In this document: one piece after another, positions 1,930 to 40,583 of the stretch
Layout of the letters: each line of letters begins with the position of its first letter
How positions within the stretch are numbered: position 1 is the stretch's first letter
Assembly: GCF_010894435.1 (NCBI RefSeq)
Contig: NZ_JAAIXZ010000009.1
Coordinates: 62,001-126,000, forward strand
Source: Pyxidicoccus trucidator
Lineage (GTDB): Bacteria > Myxococcota > Myxococcia > Myxococcales > Myxococcaceae
Direction: 5' to 3'
DNA: 64,000 bases
The notes under the pieces: model-generated
Databases searched by the model: none
What the model was told of the DNA's origin: nothing
What the model saw: only the letters and a program-made list of their open reading frames with translations
Program-made: the position numbers and the translations under genes

Positions 1930-3108
1930 TCAACCCGCGCGCTTCTTCGTCCGACGGTCCGACTTCAGTGCCTCGCGCACCGCCGCCGCCACGTCCGCCA
2001 TGACTTCCGGCGACAAGTCCTGGTGGCACGGAATCTCCACAATCGACCGCCGCAATTGCGCCACCTCGGGGAACGCCGACGCGTCACACGCCGGGTGGAA
2101 GCGCTTCCAGAAGTCGATGGCGTCGATGCCCTGCGCCCGCAGTCGCGCCAGCACCTCCGCCTTGTCCTGCACCACCATCGGGTAGAACAGCGGGCAGGCC
2201 CCCGGCGGCAGCTGGTTGAACAGCGGCGGCGACACGTCGCGCAGCCGGCCCAGCAGGAAGAAGTAGTTGCGGCGGCGCTGCTCGACGATGGATTCCAAAT
2301 CCTGCGCCAGGGCGATCCGCTTCGTCAGCGGGCTCATGCCCAGGTCCACGTGCTTGCGGTCGAAGTGCTGCGTGCCCGTGGCGACGCGTTCAATGCTGGC
2401 CGCCTTCACCGTGCCGTGTCCCAGCGCGCGCACCGTGCTGCGCAGCGTGCGGCCGAAGGCCCCGCCCCGCAGCTCCAGGTTCTGCAAGAGCGCGGACACC
2501 GTGTGGCTGAAGGTGGACGCGGACGGCGGCGCCGGAGGCTCCGGCAGGCTGTACTGGCGCGGGCCATTGACGACGAGCGCGCCACCATTGGGCACCGGCA
2601 GCGTCTTGTAGAGGCAGAAGATGCCCACGTCGCCGGTGGTGCCCAGCGGCACCGCGCCGTCCGACGAGAGGAGCGACAGCGCACAGTCCTCGATGAGGAT
2701 GAGGCCATGCTGGTCCGCCAGCTTGCGCATCTCCTGCACGGGGCCCGGGAAGCCCGCGTAGTGCGTGAGGTACAGGGCCTTCGTCTTCGGGCCGATGCGG
2801 CGGGCCACGTCCTCCAGGTCCACGTCCCAGCGGCTGCCCACGCGGTAGAAGCGCGGCGTGGCGCCGGCGTCCACCAGTGCCTCCACCTCCACGCCGTGGT
2901 GGTAGGCGGGCATCAGCACCTCGCCCGCGTCCAGCCCCAGCATCTTCACCGTGAGCCAGATGGCGTTGCGGGCAAAGTAGAAGTAGCGGACGTTGGGCGA
3001 GGAGAACGGGGGCAGCGCCCCCGGCTTCGGCCGCGACATCAACATGTGCGGCCAGAGCGTCGGCAGGGAGGGGACGAACAGCTTCCCTGAGGGCTTCATC
3101 GCTTCCAT
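1930..3108 (-). CDS. exoH: ExoH, DegT/DnrJ-type PLP aminotransferase
   Basis: A 392-residue member of the sugar aminotransferase (DegT/DnrJ/EryC1) fold. Visible features are AYHHGVEVEALVDAGATPRF in the N-terminal half, LTHYAGFPG, LIEDCALSL, and the lysine expected to bind PLP in CLYKTLPVPNGGAL. It would make an amino sugar (or related amine) for the spore-coat polymer from a keto-sugar nucleotide. Start: ATG at 3108 with GAGGTGG ten bases upstream. A second ATG at 3099 overlaps the exoG stop as ATGA. Either way the two genes overlap and are probably translationally coupled. Confidence 0.85.
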   Translation of the reverse strand: MEAMKPSGKLFVPSLPTLWPHMLMSRPKPGALPPFSSPNVRYFYFARNAIWLTVKMLGLDAGEVLMPAYHHGVEVEALVDAGATPRFYRVGSRWDVDLEDVARRIGPKTKALYLTHYAGFPGPVQEMRKLADQHGLILIEDCALSLLSSDGAVPLGTTGDVGIFCLYKTLPVPNGGALVVNGPRQYSLPEPPAPPSASTFSHTVSALLQNLELRGGAFGRTLRSTVRALGHGTVKAASIERVATGTQHFDRKHVDLGMSPLTKRIALAQDLESIVEQRRRNYFFLLGRLRDVSPPLFNQLPPGACPLFYPMVVQDKAEVLARLRAQGIDAIDFWKRFHPACDASAFPEVAQLRRSIVEIPCHQDLSPEVMADVAAAVREALKSDRRTKKRAG

Positions 3109-4214
3109 CTCGCCACCACCTCTTTCATCGCGGGTCCCCACCGGAACTTGGCCGCGCAGAGCGCCCGGCCGAAGGCGGAGTCATTGAATACGTAGAGCCA
3201 GGTGTGGCGCCGGACCTGGTCCGTCCAGTCGCGCTTCCACACCATGTCCGGCCCCAGGAAGTCGAACTCGCCCAGGCCGCGGTCGATGCAGCTTCCGACG
3301 ACCTCCTCCACGAGGAGCTGCCCAGGGCTGCACTCACGCAGGCTCTCGTCGTAGCCGGGCTTCAGCAGGAAGTAGCGCCCGCCGTATTCCAGGCCGTAGT
3401 GGAAGGCCACCGGCTTGCCGTCCACGCGCAGGAAGTACAGCGCCAGGCGCTTGCGGTAGGCCGCATCCCGCGCCAGCTCCGTGTAGAAGCCGCGCGTGCG
3501 CGCGTCCTGCGCCATGGCCGTGCCGCGCTCGCCCTTCCAGCCGCTCTGTTCGAGGAGGAAGCCCTGCTCCAGCGTGCCCTCCAGGTCGAGCCCGCCGTCC
3601 ACCCGCTCGAAGGTGACGCGGCCCCTCTCCTCCAGCTTGCGCCGCCGCCGCCGGCAGTTGGCCTTGAACTTGGACTGGAGCTTCCCCTGGTACGCGTCCC
3701 GGGTGGACGGCAGGGGGATGTAGGGCGACTGGAGCGACTCCCACTCCCCCACCGGCATTCCCGCCTCGCGTGCCAGCGCGTGGAGCCGCCAGGCCGCCCC
3801 GCCGTCCGGCACGTCCGTCAGCCGCAGCACGTCCCACCCGCCCACCGAGCGCAGGTGCGCGAGGAAGGCCTCCGCGGCCACGTCCGGCTCGCGGGCCAGC
3901 AGGTCGAAACGGCACGAGTGCGCGTTGGCCATCGCGGACAGCTGCCGCGCCGGCACGCCGTACAGCGAGGTGCGCTCCTCCCACAGCGGCAGCGCCGCCG
4001 TCAGCTGGCCCTGCGCGTCCCGCAGCGTCAGCACGCGCGGGCGCGCACCGGGCGCGAAGTTGTCCAGCCAGATGCGGAGGAACTCGTGCCGGTAGAACAG
4101 CTCGTTGGAGGTGGCCTCCACGAGCGCGTTCCACTCCGCTTCCAGGGTCATGAAGGCCGCCCGGTCGGTGACTTCCACGACGGACGGCCGGGCGATGAGG
4201 TGTCTAGCTTCCAT
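3096..4214 (-). CDS. exoG: ExoG, FemAB/CelD-like acyltransferase (GNAT fold)
   Basis: 372 residues, with the same fold as ExoI: a basic RRRRRKLEERG stretch near residue 190, then FLLEQSGWKG, PVAFHYGLEYGGRYFLLKPGYDE and EFDFLGPDMVWKRDW. In M. xanthus it is one of the two GNAT-family proteins of the exo locus. The FemAB-like layout raises amino-acid transfer as an option, since M. xanthus spore coat is reported to contain glycine. It sits 35 bp after exoF and overlaps exoH. No strong ribosome site precedes the ATG at 4214, which fits reading by coupling within the operon. Confidence 0.85.
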   Translation of the reverse strand: MEARHLIARPSVVEVTDRAAFMTLEAEWNALVEATSNELFYRHEFLRIWLDNFAPGARPRVLTLRDAQGQLTAALPLWEERTSLYGVPARQLSAMANAHSCRFDLLAREPDVAAEAFLAHLRSVGGWDVLRLTDVPDGGAAWRLHALAREAGMPVGEWESLQSPYIPLPSTRDAYQGKLQSKFKANCRRRRRKLEERGRVTFERVDGGLDLEGTLEQGFLLEQSGWKGERGTAMAQDARTRGFYTELARDAAYRKRLALYFLRVDGKPVAFHYGLEYGGRYFLLKPGYDESLRECSPGQLLVEEVVGSCIDRGLGEFDFLGPDMVWKRDWTDQVRRHTWLYVFNDSAFGRALCAAKFRWGPAMKEVVARWKR

Positions 4215-5462: not shown

Positions 5463-6833
5463 CTACCGAGCCCCACGACCGAGAAGAACATGTCTCACGG
5501 TGTGGAAGATGATTCCCACATCCAGGAACAGCGAGCCGTTCTTCACGTAGTACAGGTCGAACTCCAGCTTGTTCCGCGCATCCTCCACCGAGGCGCCATA
5601 GGGGTAGCGAATCTGCGCCCACCCCGTCAGGCCCGGCTTCACCGCCTCGCGCAGCCCGAAGAAGGGAATCTGCGTCTTCAGCTGCTCCACGAAGATGGGC
5701 CGCTCCGGACGAGGACCCACGAAGCTCATCTCCCCCATCAGCACGTTGAAGACCTGGGGAATCTCGTCGATGCGCGTGCGGCGGATGAAGCGCCCCACCC
5801 GGGTGACGCGGTCATCATTCGCCTTGGCCCACACCGCGCCATCCTTCTCCGCGTCCGTCCGCATGCTGCGGAACTTCCAGAGGTGGAAGGTGCTGCCCGC
5901 CAGGCCCGTCCGCTCCTGCCGGTAGAAGAGGGGCCCCTTGGAGTCCAGCTTGATGGCCACCGCGACCAGCAAGAGGAAGGGCGCGGCGGCCAGCAGCAGC
6001 AGCGACGCCACCAGGATGTCGAAGCCGCGCTTGAGCGCCCGCCGCAGCGGCGACACCGTCAGCTCGTCCGCGAAGGCGAAGTCGCTCGCCCGGAGGAACT
6101 GCACCGGAATGCGGCGCAGTACCCGCTCACAGAAGCCCGCCGCCTCGTACACCCGCCGCCCCTGCAGCCGGCAGCTCAAGAGCGACTCCACCCAGTTGGC
6201 CCCGCGCATGTCGTCCGCGGCCTGGATGACGTAGGACGCGTTGAGCCGGGCCGCCATCTTCTCCAGCGGCTCGGAGGCGTTGTTCCGCGGGTCCACCATG
6301 CCCACCACGCGGTAGCTGCCCTCGCCGCCCGCGTCGATGGCGCTCGCCACCGCCCGGGCCTTGAGGCCGTCTCCCACGAGGAGGACCCTGTCGGGCGCTC
6401 CCACCAGGGCGCGGATGGACACCCGCACCATGAGGGTGCCGGCCAGGGCGCCCATCGCCCCGCCCAGCAGCGTGCCCGGAGGCAGCGCCACCGGCATCAC
6501 CAGCGGCACCACCAGCATCACCCCACCGGCAACCATCGCGGTGACGCCGGCGGCCTTGAGGAAGCGGTAGCCCCGCTCCCGGTCCTCCGCGGCCACGCGG
6601 AGGTCATACAAGTCCAGCAGGTACAGCGTGAATTGAAACGTGACGACGAATGCGGCGCCCAGTCCCAGCAACGTGGGCCACAACTCGAGAAGAGGGGGCC
6701 AGGTCCCCTCGGGCGCGAAGAGTGCCGCGCAGGCCGCCGCGCCCATCACGCAGGCCAACGCAATCGCCGAGCTCTCGGCGAGGAAGAAAGTCAGCTTCTT
6801 TGCAGAAAAGTAGTGGTGAAAAACGCGGAGCAC
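5463..6833 (-). CDS. exoE: ExoE, polyprenyl-phosphate hexose-1-phosphate transferase
   Basis: 456 residues. The N-terminal part has four to five hydrophobic segments, followed by a nucleotide-binding-like region (RVLLVGDGLKARAVASAI). The C-terminal bacterial sugar-transferase domain carries KRGFDILVASLLLL, GPLFYRQERTG, FRSMRTDAE, RTRIDEIPQVFNVLMGEMSFVGPRPE and PGLTGWAQ. This is the WbaP/EpsE-type enzyme that starts the coat repeat unit on undecaprenyl phosphate at the inner membrane. Start is GTG at 6833 with GGAGG close upstream. An upstream extension in the same frame has no membrane or transferase content and I reject it. Confidence 0.92.
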   Translation of the reverse strand: MLRVFHHYFSAKKLTFFLAESSAIALACVMGAAACAALFAPEGTWPPLLELWPTLLGLGAAFVVTFQFTLYLLDLYDLRVAAEDRERGYRFLKAAGVTAMVAGGVMLVVPLVMPVALPPGTLLGGAMGALAGTLMVRVSIRALVGAPDRVLLVGDGLKARAVASAIDAGGEGSYRVVGMVDPRNNASEPLEKMAARLNASYVIQAADDMRGANWVESLLSCRLQGRRVYEAAGFCERVLRRIPVQFLRASDFAFADELTVSPLRRALKRGFDILVASLLLLAAAPFLLLVAVAIKLDSKGPLFYRQERTGLAGSTFHLWKFRSMRTDAEKDGAVWAKANDDRVTRVGRFIRRTRIDEIPQVFNVLMGEMSFVGPRPERPIFVEQLKTQIPFFGLREAVKPGLTGWAQIRYPYGASVEDARNKLEFDLYYVKNGSLFLDVGIIFHTVRHVLLGRGAR

Positions 6834-7687: not shown

Positions 7688-9097
7688 TCAGTTCAACGAC
7701 GTGGGGGAAGACACATTGTTTCGAGCCCCCGAAGCCGGCATCAACATCCGCCGCTCCGTCTTGCCATGCATATCCGGGACCACCGCGAGCACCGGCAGGG
7801 TGAGGCGCTCGCGCACCTCGGAGCCGTCTCGCAGGCTGTCGTCGCGCATCTCGAGCACCGCGCCGGTGAGGATGCCCAGGCCCAGGGCCACGAGGAGGGC
7901 GATGAGCATGCCCGTCACGCGGTCCGGCCGGGCCGGAATCGCCGGCACGCCCGCGGGGGAGATGACGTTGAAGAGGCTCTTGGCGCTCCGGGCCTCCAGC
8001 TCCTGCGCAATCTCCGCTTCCACCTTGCGGCTCACCACGCTCTGGTACTTGGTGCGGGTGATGTCGTAGTCGCGGTTCATCACCGACAGCTCGTGCGCCC
8101 AGCGGGGCGTGTTGGTGAGGCGGCCCTGATAGACTTCGGCCTGCTTCTGGAGGTCGACAATCTCGCCCTGGATGGACGTAATCAGCTGGGCCACCCGGGT
8201 GCGCTCGGCGCGCTCGGCCCACAGCCGGCCCTCGGCGTCCTTGCGCTTGCTCGTCATGCCGTCGAGCTCCGTCGACAGGCGCTTGATTTCAGGGTGGTCC
8301 TCCGTCCACTGGGTGCGGGCGTTGACCAGGGCGCGGGTGAGGCCATTCTCGGCGGCCTCGAGGCGACCGGCCTCGCTGTCCACGGCGTTGCGGGCCCGGG
8401 CCAGGTCGGAGCGGCGGGCCTCGGCCACGCGGAGCTCCTCGGACTTCGTCTGGAGCTGATGCGACACCCGCTCCAGCCCGCGCATGTTCATCTCCATCTG
8501 CTCGGGCAGCTCACCCAGGTGGTCCACCTTGAACTGGGCAATCTTGCGCTCCCAGGAGGTGACGGCGGTGCCGAGCTGGTTCATCTCCTCGTTGAAGAGG
8601 TCCGTGGCGCGAGCCGCCTGCGCCTGGCGGAGCTTCAGCGTCTCCGCGGAGAAGATGTCCGGCAGCCGGTTGGCCACCTGCGCGGCCACCTGCGGATCAC
8701 GGTTGGCATAGGTGAGCTCGAAGGCCGTCTCACCCTCCACGCGCACCGTCAAATCCCTGCGCATCTGGGCGACCGCGGACTCCATGCCCTTCTCGGACAC
8801 GATGTCCGGGTAGAGGTTCATCTCTTCGATGGCCTTCTGGAGCACGGGGCGGGCGAGCAGCTCCTGCCTCACCGTGAGCAGCCGCTGTTCGATGAGCTCG
8901 CTCACCGTGCGCTGCACCATCTCCTCGCCCGGCCGCTGCGGCTCCACGCGGACCACCACCGACGCCTCGTACATGCTCGGCCGGGTCATCACGATGGCCG
9001 CGCCCACCGCGAAGACCGCTGCTGCGATGGCTCCCACCAAGGCCTTGCGGCGCCACAGGGCAGCCAGCAGCTGGTCCGCCGTCATCCCTCGCTCCAT
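7688..9097 (-). CDS. exoC: ExoC, Wzz/Wzc-like polysaccharide co-polymerase
   Basis: 469 residues. A first transmembrane helix (about residues 19-40) leads to a Wzz domain with VVVRVEPQRPG. A long periplasmic coiled coil follows (about 190-340), and a second helix (VTGMLIALLVALGLGILTGA) lies near the C-terminus. The kinase half of a typical Wzc is missing and is supplied by ExoD. It spans the inner membrane and periplasm, linking polymerisation to the ExoA outlet. Start: ATG at 9097 directly after a GGAGGAGGAG ribosome site. An upstream ATG at 9115 overlaps that site and is unlikely. Confidence 0.92.
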   Translation of the reverse strand: MERGMTADQLLAALWRRKALVGAIAAAVFAVGAAIVMTRPSMYEASVVVRVEPQRPGEEMVQRTVSELIEQRLLTVRQELLARPVLQKAIEEMNLYPDIVSEKGMESAVAQMRRDLTVRVEGETAFELTYANRDPQVAAQVANRLPDIFSAETLKLRQAQAARATDLFNEEMNQLGTAVTSWERKIAQFKVDHLGELPEQMEMNMRGLERVSHQLQTKSEELRVAEARRSDLARARNAVDSEAGRLEAAENGLTRALVNARTQWTEDHPEIKRLSTELDGMTSKRKDAEGRLWAERAERTRVAQLITSIQGEIVDLQKQAEVYQGRLTNTPRWAHELSVMNRDYDITRTKYQSVVSRKVEAEIAQELEARSAKSLFNVISPAGVPAIPARPDRVTGMLIALLVALGLGILTGAVLEMRDDSLRDGSEVRERLTLPVLAVVPDMHGKTERRMLMPASGARNNVSSPTSLN

Positions 9098-9129
9098 GTT
9101 CCGCTCCTCCTCCATCCCTCTCGATGTTG

Positions 9130-10278
9130 CTACCAAGGCGTCACCACCAGTCGGACCGCGAAGACATTGCGCGTCAGGTCCGCCGCGCCCGCCGAATCCG
9201 CCACACCGACCTGAGCAATCCTGTCCACCGCACCCTGCGCGGAAATGCGCCGGTCAATGCGGTACTCCACACCACCACTCACTGCATAACCCTGCGACAC
9301 CGTCGGCGAGCCGCTGAAGACGCCCCAGTCCTGGGACGGGGCCCGCCCGTTGCGGAAGAAGCTCGCCGCGCCAAACACGTTGAGCTTCTGGGTGAAGCGG
9401 CGGGCCAGCACCACGCCCGCGTAGTCCGCCCACAGCGCGTTGGTGAAGCCGCTCGCGCCCACCAGGTCGTGGCCCACCACCACGCCCACGTCGAGCAGCT
9501 CTCCTTCCCGCTGCAGCTCCAGCCCCACCCGCGGCACCCAGCCGCCCGCCTGGCCATCCGGCGCCAGGTAGCGCACCGGCCCCGCGCGGGCGATGAACGT
9601 CGTGGGCCGCGTCAGCCGGTAGCGCAACCCCGCCGCCGCGCCATGCGCCTGCCCCATGGACCTTTCGTAGAGAAACGCCTGATACCGGTACTCCAGGCCC
9701 AGGCTGAGCCGCCGCGTGGAGCGGTACCACGCCTCCAGCGACGGCGTATGCGCGTAGCCCGGGGACTGGCCCGACTCGAGGATGCGCACCGCCTCGAACT
9801 TGTAGCCGGCGCGCACGTCCAGCCTGTCCGTGGCGCGCGTCGTGAAGCCCAGGCCCGCCTGCGTGAAGAACGTCGGCGCCGTCGAGCGGGCCAGGCCGTC
9901 ACGCGGCAGGGAGGACGGGTCCGTCACGCGGAACACGCGCACCGCCGAGTCCACCCGCAGCCGCCGCGTCAGCACGTGCCGGGCCTCCAGCCCCGCGCGG
10001 TGGTCCAGCGTCACCTTGCCGGAGCCGTGCCGCATCAGGAGGTCCGCCGCGTAGAAGCTGTTCAGCGTCAGCCGCCCGTCCTTCGCCTCCAGGCCCAGCC
10101 GCGGGGTCAGCTTCGTCATCAACTGCCCACCGGCCTCGCCGTCGCCCAGGCGCAGGTCGTCGTCGTAGCGCTCCTCCGCGGTCAGCCGCAGCCGAGGCTC
10201 GAAGACAGTGGCTCCCTGCGCGGCTGGCGCGGCGAGAATCAGACCCGCGAGCAGCCCCTTCTTCCAGTTGCCCTTCAC
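9130..10278 (-). CDS. exoB: ExoB, outer-membrane beta-barrel of the coat exporter
   Basis: 382 residues. A signal peptide (lysines, then GLLAGLILAAPAAQGA) precedes alternating hydrophobic strands rich in aromatic girdle residues, such as GLGFTTRATDRLDVRAGYKF and LSLGLEYRYQAF, typical of an outer-membrane barrel with about 16-18 strands. In M. xanthus ExoB is needed for spore-coat export and is proposed to be the outer-membrane pore partner of the short exporter lipoprotein ExoA. The GTG start at 10278 has GGAGGGCG seven bases upstream and puts the signal peptide first. A longer frame to 10347 would bury it. Confidence 0.88.
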   Translation of the reverse strand: MKGNWKKGLLAGLILAAPAAQGATVFEPRLRLTAEERYDDDLRLGDGEAGGQLMTKLTPRLGLEAKDGRLTLNSFYAADLLMRHGSGKVTLDHRAGLEARHVLTRRLRVDSAVRVFRVTDPSSLPRDGLARSTAPTFFTQAGLGFTTRATDRLDVRAGYKFEAVRILESGQSPGYAHTPSLEAWYRSTRRLSLGLEYRYQAFLYERSMGQAHGAAAGLRYRLTRPTTFIARAGPVRYLAPDGQAGGWVPRVGLELQREGELLDVGVVVGHDLVGASGFTNALWADYAGVVLARRFTQKLNVFGAASFFRNGRAPSQDWGVFSGSPTVSQGYAVSGGVEYRIDRRISAQGAVDRIAQVGVADSAGAADLTRNVFAVRLVVTPW

Positions 10279-33020: not shown

Positions 33021-33143
33021 CGCGCCACCCTCCCCGCCAGAATTTTCTTCTTCACCGCGCCTCCGGCTCGCACCCTGATTTACAGTCCCGAGCCCTTCAC
33101 CGACCGCTACAACTCCCTGGATTTACTTGAGATGGGCACTGGA

Positions 33144-33422
33144 CTACCCATCCTGGGCAGCGGTTTTAGCAATGGCTGTGCCACCCTGGGCCTCGCGCAG
33201 GCGGGCTTCCAGCTCGGCCGGGTCCACGCGGTGCTTGAAGGCGGGAACGCCGTCGATGACGACCACGGGGATGTCGTAGCGCCAGGCGTCGAAGGCCGCC
33301 GCGTCCTCCAGGATGGAGATGATCCGCAGCTCGAAGGGGATGCGAGCTCGCACGGACTCCACGACGCTGGCTGCCTTGTCGCAGAGCGAGCAGTTGGGTT
33401 TCGAGTAGATATCGACTCTCAT
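33144..33422 (-). CDS. Glutaredoxin-like thioredoxin-fold protein
   Basis: 92 residues, DUF836/glutaredoxin-2-like: an RVDIYSKPNCSLCDKAASVV start with a CSLC redox pair, then YDIPVVVIDGVPAFKHRVD with the cis-proline. It is probably a small thiol-disulfide exchange protein. ATG at 33422. Its start lies 21 bp from the divergently read DUF4388 gene, so its promoter must lie within that gene's 5' part. It may lead the act-like operon, 123 bp upstream of actA. Confidence 0.82.
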   Translation of the reverse strand: MRVDIYSKPNCSLCDKAASVVESVRARIPFELRIISILEDAAAFDAWRYDIPVVVIDGVPAFKHRVDPAELEARLREAQGGTAIAKTAAQDG

Positions 33423-33443
33423 GCGGTGCAGGATGGTCGGTCC

Positions 33444-38104: not shown

Positions 38105-38335
38105 TCAGCCCGCCTTGCGCACCCACCCCACGTAGCTCTCCCCCCGGCGCTCCAGGCGCAGGAGCGGATTTCCGGTGGCCTCGCACCAGGCCGGGAGGTC
38201 TGCTTCCAGGCCCCGGTCCGTGGAGATGAGCTCCACCACCGTGCCCGGCGGAAGCCGCCGCATGGCCTTGGCGATTTCGAGGATGGGCATGGGGCACAGC
38301 GCCCCCGAGGTGTCCAGGCGGACCGCTTCGTCCAT
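38105..38335 (-). CDS. TusA/SirA-family sulfur carrier-like protein
   Basis: 76 residues with the family's CPMP motif (GALCPMPILEIAKAM) at about residues 13-26, then VVELISTDRGLEADLPAWCEATG. TusA proteins carry persulfide sulfur for tRNA thiolation or molybdopterin. No other sulfur-relay gene is adjacent, so the partner is unknown. I chose ATG 38335 (AGGA upstream). A GTG at 38344 adds three residues. Confidence 0.85.
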   Translation of the reverse strand: MDEAVRLDTSGALCPMPILEIAKAMRRLPPGTVVELISTDRGLEADLPAWCEATGNPLLRLERRGESYVGWVRKAG

Positions 38336-38509: not shown

Positions 38510-40507
38510 ATGGCGAAGGAGCATGACCAACCCATGAAGCCCAATGTCATCGTGGCCCTCATCGTGGGCCTGGTGCTCGGTTTCTTTGGTGGCCGCGTCG
38601 TTAGCGGCCCCTCGAAGACCGATGACGCCAAGCCCGCCGCGACCGCGCCCTCCGCACAGGCGCAGAACCGCCGCCCGGTGGACCCCACCGTCTTCAAGGT
38701 GCCCATCGACGGCGCGCCGGTGAAGGGCAGCCCCGAGGCGCTCGTCACCCTGGTGGAGTTCTCGGACTACGAGTGCCCCTTCTGCAGCCGCGCGGACGTC
38801 ACCGTTCGCAAGCTCCAGGAGCAGTACGGCAGCAAGCTCCGCGTGGTCATGAAGCAGAACCCGCTCTCCTTCCACCCCCGCGCGAAGCCCGCCGCCATCG
38901 CCGCCATGGCGGCCGGTGAGCAGGGCAAGTACTGGGAGTACCACGAGAAGCTCTTCGCCAATCAGAAGGCGCTCGATGACGCGTCCCTGGAGAAGTACGC
39001 GCAGGAGCTGAAGCTGGACATCGCGAAGTGGAAGGCCGACCTGGCCAACCCGAAGTTCCAGGACACCATCCAGAAGGACCAGGCCCAGGCCAGCCAGCTG
39101 GGCGCCAGCGGCACCCCGGCCTTCTTCATCAACGGCCGCTTCCTCTCCGGCGCGCAGCCCATCGACAACTTCAAGGCCCTCATCGACGAGGAGCTGGGCA
39201 AGGCCGAGGCCCTGGTGAAGGGTGGCGTCTCCGCTTCCCAGGTCTACGCGAAGATCATCGAGAAGGGCACCGAGAAGGCCGCCCCGAAGCAGAACCCCGC
39301 GCAGCAGGCCGCCGCCGCCGTCCGCAAGGTGGACGTCCCGTCCGACTCGCCCTCCTTCGGCCCGACCAACGCCAAGGTCACCATCATCGAGTTCTCCGAC
39401 TTCGAGTGCCCCTTCTGCAGCCGCGTGGGCCCCACGCTGACGCAGATCAAGGAGAACTACGCCAAGGACGTGCGCGTGGTGTTCCGCCACCAGCCGCTGT
39501 CCTTCCACAAGAACGCGAAGCTCGCCGCCGAGGCCTCCATGGCCGCGCACGAGCAGGGCAAGTTCTGGGAGTTCCACGACAAGCTCTTCGCCAATCAGAA
39601 GGCCCTGGAGCGCGCCTCCCTGGAGCAGTACGCGAAGGAGCTCGGCCTGAATGTCGGCGCCTTCAAGGCCGCCCTCGACAGCGGCAAGTACAAGGCGAAG
39701 GTCGAGGCGGACATGGCCGCCGGCAGCGCGGTGGGCGCCAACGGCACCCCCACGTTCTTCATCAACGGCCGTGAGTTCGTCGGCGCCCAGCCCTTCGACA
39801 ACTTCAAGAAGCTCATCGACGAGGAGATCGCCAAGGCCGACAAGCTCATCGCCAGCGGCACCAAGGCGGAAGAGCTGTACGGCAAGCTGATCGCCCAGAA
39901 CATCGCCGCCGCTCCCGCCGCTCCCGCGGGTGGCCCCCCGGGTGCCCCGGCCGAGCCGCCGGTGCAGAAGGTGGACGTCGGCAACGCCCCGGTGAAGGGC
40001 CCGAAGAACGCCCCCATCACCATCGTCGCCTTCTCTGACTTCGAGTGCCCGTTCTGCAGCCGCGTGCTGCCCACGATGAAGCAGATCGAGGACCAGTACG
40101 GCAACAAGGTGAAGGTGGCCTTCAAGAACCAGCCGCTGCCCTTCCACGCCAACGCCAAGCCGGCCGCCGCCGCCGCGCTGGCCGCCAACGAGCAGGGCAA
40201 GTTCTGGGAGATGCACGACAAGCTGTTCGCCAACCAGCGTGCCCTGGACCGCGCCTCCCTGGAGAAGTACGCCCAGGAGCTCGGCCTCAACATGGGCAAG
40301 TTCAAGGCGGCCCTGGACAGCGGCAAGTACACCGCGCAGATCGAGGCGGACGCCGCCGAGGGCTCGCGCCTGGGCGCCAGCGGCACCCCGACGTTCTTCA
40401 TCAACGGCCGCACCCTCGTCGGCGCGCAGCCCTTCGAGGCCTTCAAGCGCGTCATCGACGAGGAGCTGAAGAAGGCCGGCGGCGCGGTGGCGGCGGACGC
40501 GAAGTAG
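38510..40507 (+). CDS. Triple-domain DsbA-like thioredoxin protein
   Basis: 665 residues. An N-terminal membrane anchor (VIVALIVGLVLGFFGG) is followed by three tandem DsbA/DsbG-like domains. Their CPFC redox centres are at residues 89-92, 300-303 and 513-516, each preceded by a hydrophobic strand and acidic SD[FY]E and followed by a helical insert and a cis-proline GTPTFFINGR (GTPAFFINGR in the first). Linkers are Ala/Pro-rich. All three centres look intact, so it is probably a periplasmic multi-site disulfide oxidase, reductase or isomerase. A strong terminator follows. Confidence 0.9.
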   Translation: MAKEHDQPMKPNVIVALIVGLVLGFFGGRVVSGPSKTDDAKPAATAPSAQAQNRRPVDPTVFKVPIDGAPVKGSPEALVTLVEFSDYECPFCSRADVTVRKLQEQYGSKLRVVMKQNPLSFHPRAKPAAIAAMAAGEQGKYWEYHEKLFANQKALDDASLEKYAQELKLDIAKWKADLANPKFQDTIQKDQAQASQLGASGTPAFFINGRFLSGAQPIDNFKALIDEELGKAEALVKGGVSASQVYAKIIEKGTEKAAPKQNPAQQAAAAVRKVDVPSDSPSFGPTNAKVTIIEFSDFECPFCSRVGPTLTQIKENYAKDVRVVFRHQPLSFHKNAKLAAEASMAAHEQGKFWEFHDKLFANQKALERASLEQYAKELGLNVGAFKAALDSGKYKAKVEADMAAGSAVGANGTPTFFINGREFVGAQPFDNFKKLIDEEIAKADKLIASGTKAEELYGKLIAQNIAAAPAAPAGGPPGAPAEPPVQKVDVGNAPVKGPKNAPITIVAFSDFECPFCSRVLPTMKQIEDQYGNKVKVAFKNQPLPFHANAKPAAAAALAANEQGKFWEMHDKLFANQRALDRASLEKYAQELGLNMGKFKAALDSGKYTAQIEADAAEGSRLGASGTPTFFINGRTLVGAQPFEAFKRVIDEELKKAGGAVAADAK

Positions 40508-40540
40508 TCCCCGCTCCAGCCCCCCGGGCTTGAAGCACGA

Positions 40541-40583
40541 GAGGCCGTCGGACCGTTCAAGGTCCGGCGGCCTCTGTGTTTTT
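40541..40583 (+). terminator. Rho-independent terminator after the triple-DsbA gene
   Basis: GAGGCCGTCGGACC (40541-40554) pairs with GGTCCGGCGGCCTC (40561-40574) around loop GTTCAA, with one G-T wobble, followed by TGTGTTTTT. This is the clearest intrinsic terminator in the window. It may also serve ridA on the other strand. Confidence 0.85.

Follow-up and report, generated by a model that had tools for sequence, protein, structure and literature searches.

The window, a stretch of 64,000 nucleotides from Pyxidicoccus trucidator, carries at 38510-40507 on the forward strand a single open frame whose translation comprises 665 residues. Pfam finds three stretches of Thioredoxin_4 (301.5 bits against a cut-off of 23.2, E 2.4e-90) and three of DSBA (262 bits, cut-off 25.6, E 4.1e-78), in agreement with the earlier note, which had described three complete DsbA-like domains. 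The CPFC centres lie, as it had claimed, at residues 89, 300 and 513 of one chain, and each is accompanied by a cis-proline loop. The features are as follows.

38510..40507, +, three-domain DsbA-like protein, 665 residues plus stop (translation, Pfam; orthologues begin at the same MAKE/MKPN region)
38543..38611, +, N-terminal hydrophobic anchor, residues 12-34 (sequence; AlphaFold2 helix 11-24, low confidence)
38690..39208, +, DsbA domain 1, residues 61-233 (domain-derived profile; well folded in the model)
38774..38785, +, CPFC active site of domain 1, residues 89-92 (C89, P90 and C92 invariant in 40 orthologues)
39110..39118, +, GTcP loop of domain 1, residues 201-203 (invariant in 40 orthologues)
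39209..39319, +, linker 1, residues 234-270 (helix, then disordered at 261-268; AlphaFold2)
39320..39841, +, DsbA domain 2, residues 271-444 (domain-derived profile; AlphaFold2)
39407..39418, +, CPFC active site of domain 2, residues 300-303 (C300, P301 and C303 invariant in 40 orthologues)
39743..39751, +, GTcP loop of domain 2, residues 412-414 (invariant in 40 orthologues)
39842..39961, +, linker 2, residues 445-484 (helix, then disordered at 471-481; AlphaFold2)
39962..40477, +, DsbA domain 3, residues 485-656 (domain-derived profile; AlphaFold2)
40046..40057, +, CPFC active site of domain 3, residues 513-516 (C513, P514 and C516 invariant in 40 orthologues)
40382..40390, +, GTcP loop of domain 3, residues 625-627 (T626 and P627 invariant, G625 nearly so, in 40 orthologues)
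40540..40575, +, terminator-like hairpin of 15 pairs with a T-rich tail, directly past the stop codon (consensus match only)

The spacing from CPFC to the GTP cis-Pro loop is approximately 112 residues in all three domains. Over approximately 177 aligned residues, domains 1 and 2 are 54.8% identical, domains 1 and 3 59.6%, and domains 2 and 3 66.7%; these identities are far above chance and bear out the internal duplication that had been proposed. The hydrophobic segment near residues 12-34 lacks a lipobox, which supports its assignment as a membrane anchor and is consistent with the membrane-anchored chain described previously. In 8 of 73 related chains a lipobox-like cysteine replaces the hydrophobic anchor, and membrane anchoring therefore appears to be general among these chains, although its form is variable.

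In the AlphaFold2 model, which was built from a 40-sequence input, the three domains mostly have pLDDT values above 90, and disordered breaks occur at residues 261-268 and 471-481. The pTM is 0.43, which indicates that the heads have no defined arrangement, and the model thus predicts rigid heads on floppy linkers. Foldseek matches to the structure comprise Corynebacterium diphtheriae DsbA/TsdA, BdbD, Wolbachia α-DsbA1 and α-DsbA2, and ScsC, and the relatives in sequence and fold include PmScsC, CcScsC and α-DsbA2. The best NCBIfam match is the NF041057 Rcas_1661 family (333 bits against a cut-off of 190, summed over the three domain copies). Selenocysteine was considered because of the family name and a flagged TGA in one locus (L005), and was rejected, as L005 reads as an ordinary CPFC gene.

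Conservation, distribution and history of the domains

The active sites are conserved throughout the multi-domain proteins. CPFC or CPYC is present in 277 of the 277 scorable domains from 81 proteins with three or more domains, and GTP occupies the cis-Pro loop in 276 of them, so that a decay of the extra domains in such chains can be dismissed. The six catalytic cysteines and the three cis-prolines show no variation across an alignment of 40 three-domain orthologues. Loss of an active-site cysteine is seen only in separate, adjacent two-domain genes (L040 at 2535-4148 and L057 at 7790-9268). The redox inactivity of two of the three domains, an objection anticipated in the earlier note, is therefore not apparent at the level of the motifs. 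Relaxed selection on one domain was also considered; dN/dS is below 1 in all 27 domain comparisons, but the values range from 0.08 to 0.92 at low dS and do not rank the domains.

A match at E 1e-60 or better is present in 158 of 195 Myxococcota genomes (domain number was checked for part of these matches); for the better genomes alone, the figure is 124 of 149. The three-domain chain is found at full length across the whole genus and family, with identities of up to 90%, and several of these orthologues sit in genomes assembled on one contig. Outside Myxococcota the survey covered plasmids, which yielded a single protein, a two-domain chain from Granulicella in which one site is degraded. Complete genes in the fetched loci encode three (47 genes), four (24) or seven (2) domains, and a few single- and two-domain neighbours are present in these loci as well. 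One seven-domain protein (L063) is resolved by Pfam into seven stretches, and the window's own genome contains a two-domain paralogue (L002/L098).

Several features accompany these chains. The two-domain paralogue in L098 (6167-9049, reverse strand) follows genes that by eye resemble an ECF-type sigma factor and a zinc-finger anti-sigma factor. The seven-domain chain of L078 (gene end at 5884) has a cysteine-rich tail in which CSSAGSEA is repeated, after Pro/Ala/Lys-rich repeats. A small cysteine-rich segment of the CGCG or CYCGCP type precedes the DsbA domains in L069 (4568-5860), at the N-terminus of L074 and in L006.

Internal repeats commonly cause misjoins, and in one congener (G122) the chain is split by a frame shift in the linker between domains 1 and 2 (L092), apparently through an isolated event or a sequencing mistake. 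However, the same three-domain chain recurs in many independent assemblies, single-contig genomes included, and its domains group by position rather than by genome, which leaves practically no room for a misassembly that joined repeated domains; orthologues in so many assemblies rule out an assembly join. Separate genes in relatives, which had been named beforehand as the sign of such a join, are not the pattern observed, because the relatives carry the domains as one gene. Since relatives across the phylum carry two to seven domains per chain, the protein looks like a built-in multi-headed folding helper and not an error. The three-domain form that had been singled out as unusual is thus real, but it is no isolated oddity, as it is family-wide and longer versions exist elsewhere in Myxococcota.

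A tree built from 294 domains sorts those of Myxococcaceae by their position in the chain rather than by genome (support 0.99 for domain 1, 0.88 for domain 3 and 0.55 for domain 2) and places the paralogue's two domains with domains 1 and 3. Because the domains cluster by position, the duplications are old and predate the family. Domains five to seven of L078 fall with preceding domains of their own chain, a pattern suggestive of a block duplication. Exact runs much longer than shuffling predicts are shared by neighbouring domains in Corallococcus loci, reaching 98 bases in L019 and 88 in L044 (0 of 2000 shuffles), a test that is indicative, as the shuffle permutes codon columns and does not keep the clustering of conserved residues. 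In L019, L044 and other Corallococcus loci, such runs lie between domains 2 and 3 or between domains 1 and 2. The runs suggest gene conversion between domains.

Redox partners and gene neighbourhood

The window's genome encodes one VKOR fused to a thioredoxin-type domain and two DsbD/CcdA-type proteins, and DsbB was not found in it. Among the 195 Myxococcota genomes, VKOR is detected in 143, DsbB in 3 and DsbD_TM in 182, and DsbC_N is detected in none, with a positive E. coli control. Neither VKOR nor DsbB is detected in 35 of the 158 carriers of the multi-domain protein, although draft genomes may miss genes, which bears on such absence counts; 29 of these 35 have DsbD_TM, and some of the VKOR- and DsbB-negative carriers are nearly complete genomes. 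DsbD_TM is present in 149 of 158 carriers and 33 of 37 non-carriers and thus does not track with the protein, whereas VKOR co-occurs weakly with it (Fisher p 0.02, uncorrected for kinship). Co-occurrence of VKOR or DsbD is accordingly a weak discriminator between the explanations considered below.

The neighbours of the gene in the window are an ABC transporter, a divergent TusA gene and RidA/RelA genes. They are conserved almost only within the family, which renders operon logic in the window uninformative. The TusA sulfurtransferase gene (38105-38335, reverse strand) is kept in 26 Myxococcaceae loci. A small glutaredoxin-like protein (DUF836, PF05768) is encoded at about 33130-33440 on the reverse strand, and DUF836-like genes also occur near the multi-domain gene in L049, L050, L082 and L086. 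In 12 distant Myxococcota loci, a gene for a membrane-anchored TlpA/Redoxin-type thioredoxin (WATWCPPC; family assignment checked by Pfam in two loci) lies directly downstream on the same strand, and in 5 further distant loci it lies within about 3 kb. These loci are related and therefore not independent, and in the family to which the window belongs, the multi-domain gene has no TlpA gene beside it.

Proposed function and competing explanations

The reading that we favour, at a probability close to even, is that the chain acts as a one-chain disulfide isomerase, the counterpart by analogy of the oligomeric ScsC and α-DsbA2. The protein would be a thiol-disulfide foldase anchored in the inner membrane and facing the periplasm, with three DsbA-type catalytic domains tethered by flexible linkers. 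Held side by side on one non-native substrate, one head could attack a wrong disulfide while its neighbour holds or resolves another, and the net result would be disulfide shuffling, as with dimeric DsbC, trimeric ScsC and α-DsbA2, and eukaryotic PDI. All of these enzymes shuffle disulfides by bringing at least two catalytic domains together. A DsbD/CcdA-type membrane transporter would deliver the reducing power, perhaps via a TlpA-like thioredoxin, and the wider system would be oxidised by VKOR. The idea that one chain might act at several disulfides, put forward in the earlier note, is supported at the sequence level.

Removal of the trimerisation region of PmScsC abolishes its isomerase activity and creates oxidase activity (PMC5524982), and truncated α-DsbA2 behaves likewise (PMC6450060). 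According to the authors of the latter study, two catalytic domains are the minimum for strong isomerase activity, and GTcP is common to isomerases (PMC6450060). The isomerase reading draws on the conserved sites in all heads, this published rule of head joining, the lack of detected DsbC_N and the presence of DsbD_TM in 182 of 195 genomes, as well as on the relatives in sequence and fold, the rigid heads and floppy linkers of the model, the 29 carriers that have DsbD_TM but neither VKOR nor DsbB detected, and the TlpA/Redoxin-type genes downstream in distant loci. It is weakened by the top structural matches, which include the single-domain DsbA/TsdA and BdbD, and by the motifs, which are not discriminating: the single-domain relatives in Myxococcota genomes and C. 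diphtheriae DsbA have the same CPFC and GTP motifs, so that these cannot separate an isomerase from an oxidase, and GTcP was discarded as proof of an isomerase. It also counts against this reading that DsbD does not track with the protein while VKOR does so weakly, and that a neighbouring TlpA gene is missing in the window's own family. For Myxococcota as a whole we propose, more tentatively and at somewhat below even probability, that a one-chain array of two to seven redox-active DsbA heads is a periplasmic isomerase that replaces DsbC, a separately arisen counterpart of PDI whose domain number changes through tandem duplication and gene conversion.

A serious rival, though one that we consider doubtful overall, is a multi-site oxidase, in which a DsbA-type oxidant is re-oxidised by VKOR and the repeats simply provide more oxidising capacity at the membrane or concentrate the oxidising sites there. 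VKOR is encoded in the window's genome and in most Myxococcota genomes and shows the weak co-occurrence described above; the closest solved single-domain relatives include DsbA/TsdA and BdbD, and CPFC and GTP are shared with C. diphtheriae DsbA. However, the carriers in which neither VKOR nor DsbB is detected, nearly complete genomes among them, do not fit a dependence on such a partner, the VKOR protein here has a thioredoxin-type domain of its own, and a need for capacity alone could be met by more expression.

That the chain might pass electrons along itself had also been suggested; in such an ordered relay, each CPFC would hand them on to the following one and so connect a membrane partner with the substrate. 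Several redox sites do lie on one membrane-anchored chain, and their positions are distinguishable in the domain tree, but every domain has the same CPFC/GTP motif, which suggests similar redox potentials, the model contains no fixed contacts between domains, and the occurrence of chains with 2, 3, 4 and 7 domains suits independent heads better than an ordered relay; we regard this relay as very improbable. Scarcely more probable is a role linked to copper or to cytochrome assembly, by which the protein would keep the cysteines of metalloproteins reduced, as in the case of ScsC and TlpA partners. The fold relative ScsC is linked to copper (PMC5524982, PMC8900818) and TlpA-like neighbours occur in the distant loci, yet neither the surroundings of the gene in the window nor its recurrent neighbours include a recognisable copper or cytochrome gene cluster.

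Comparison with known systems

In the open-access literature, no paper was found on tandem redox-active or multidomain DsbA arrays, and nothing relevant was found on DsbA or oxidative folding in myxobacteria; genome annotations may already list such proteins as DsbA family or thioredoxin domain proteins. The single-domain DsbA, BdbD and TsdA oxidases have the same domain fold and the same layout of CxxC and cis-Pro, which is present in every domain here, but possess one catalytic domain per chain. The NF041057 Rcas_1661 thioredoxin-like (seleno)lipoprotein model spans 247 positions and matches each domain separately, whereas the present protein has three copies and no selenocysteine. UGGT also contains tandem thioredoxin-like domains that are near ScsC in fold (PMC4255179; long Foldseek alignments), but these are without CXXC and are not redox-active. 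PDI resembles the protein in having tandem thioredoxin-fold domains on one chain, more than one of them catalytic; however, PDI combines active a/a' with inactive b/b' thioredoxin-type domains (PMC4255179), whereas here all domains are of the DsbA type and all sites are kept, so that the a-b-b'-a' layout with inactive b domains is absent. The DsbC_N dimerisation domain (PF10411) that marks DsbC/DsbG is absent from the Pfam matches of the protein.

The closest parallels are oligomeric. Wolbachia α-DsbA2 is a DsbA-like homotrimer with GTcP, the isomerase activity of which needs joined domains (PMC6450060), but it is a non-covalent trimer with a CGHC active site and one domain per chain. ScsC (PmScsC, CcScsC) shares the DsbA-like catalytic domain and the Thr-cisPro loop, and its functional particle likewise has three catalytic domains with a mobile head connection (PMC5524982, PMC8900818). 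In ScsC, three chains of one domain each are joined by an N-terminal helix that forms a trimerisation stalk, whereas the present protein is one membrane-anchored chain, with 2 to 7 domains among its relatives, and its N-terminus consists of the hydrophobic anchor and a low-confidence stretch. The protein is a likely candidate for the disulfide-repair enzyme of myxobacteria. The work on ScsC and α-DsbA2 has argued that a DsbA-like oxidase becomes an isomerase once at least two catalytic domains are joined, and the natural series of 2, 3, 4 and 7 domains, in a phylum without detectable DsbC, makes this rule testable by counting heads.
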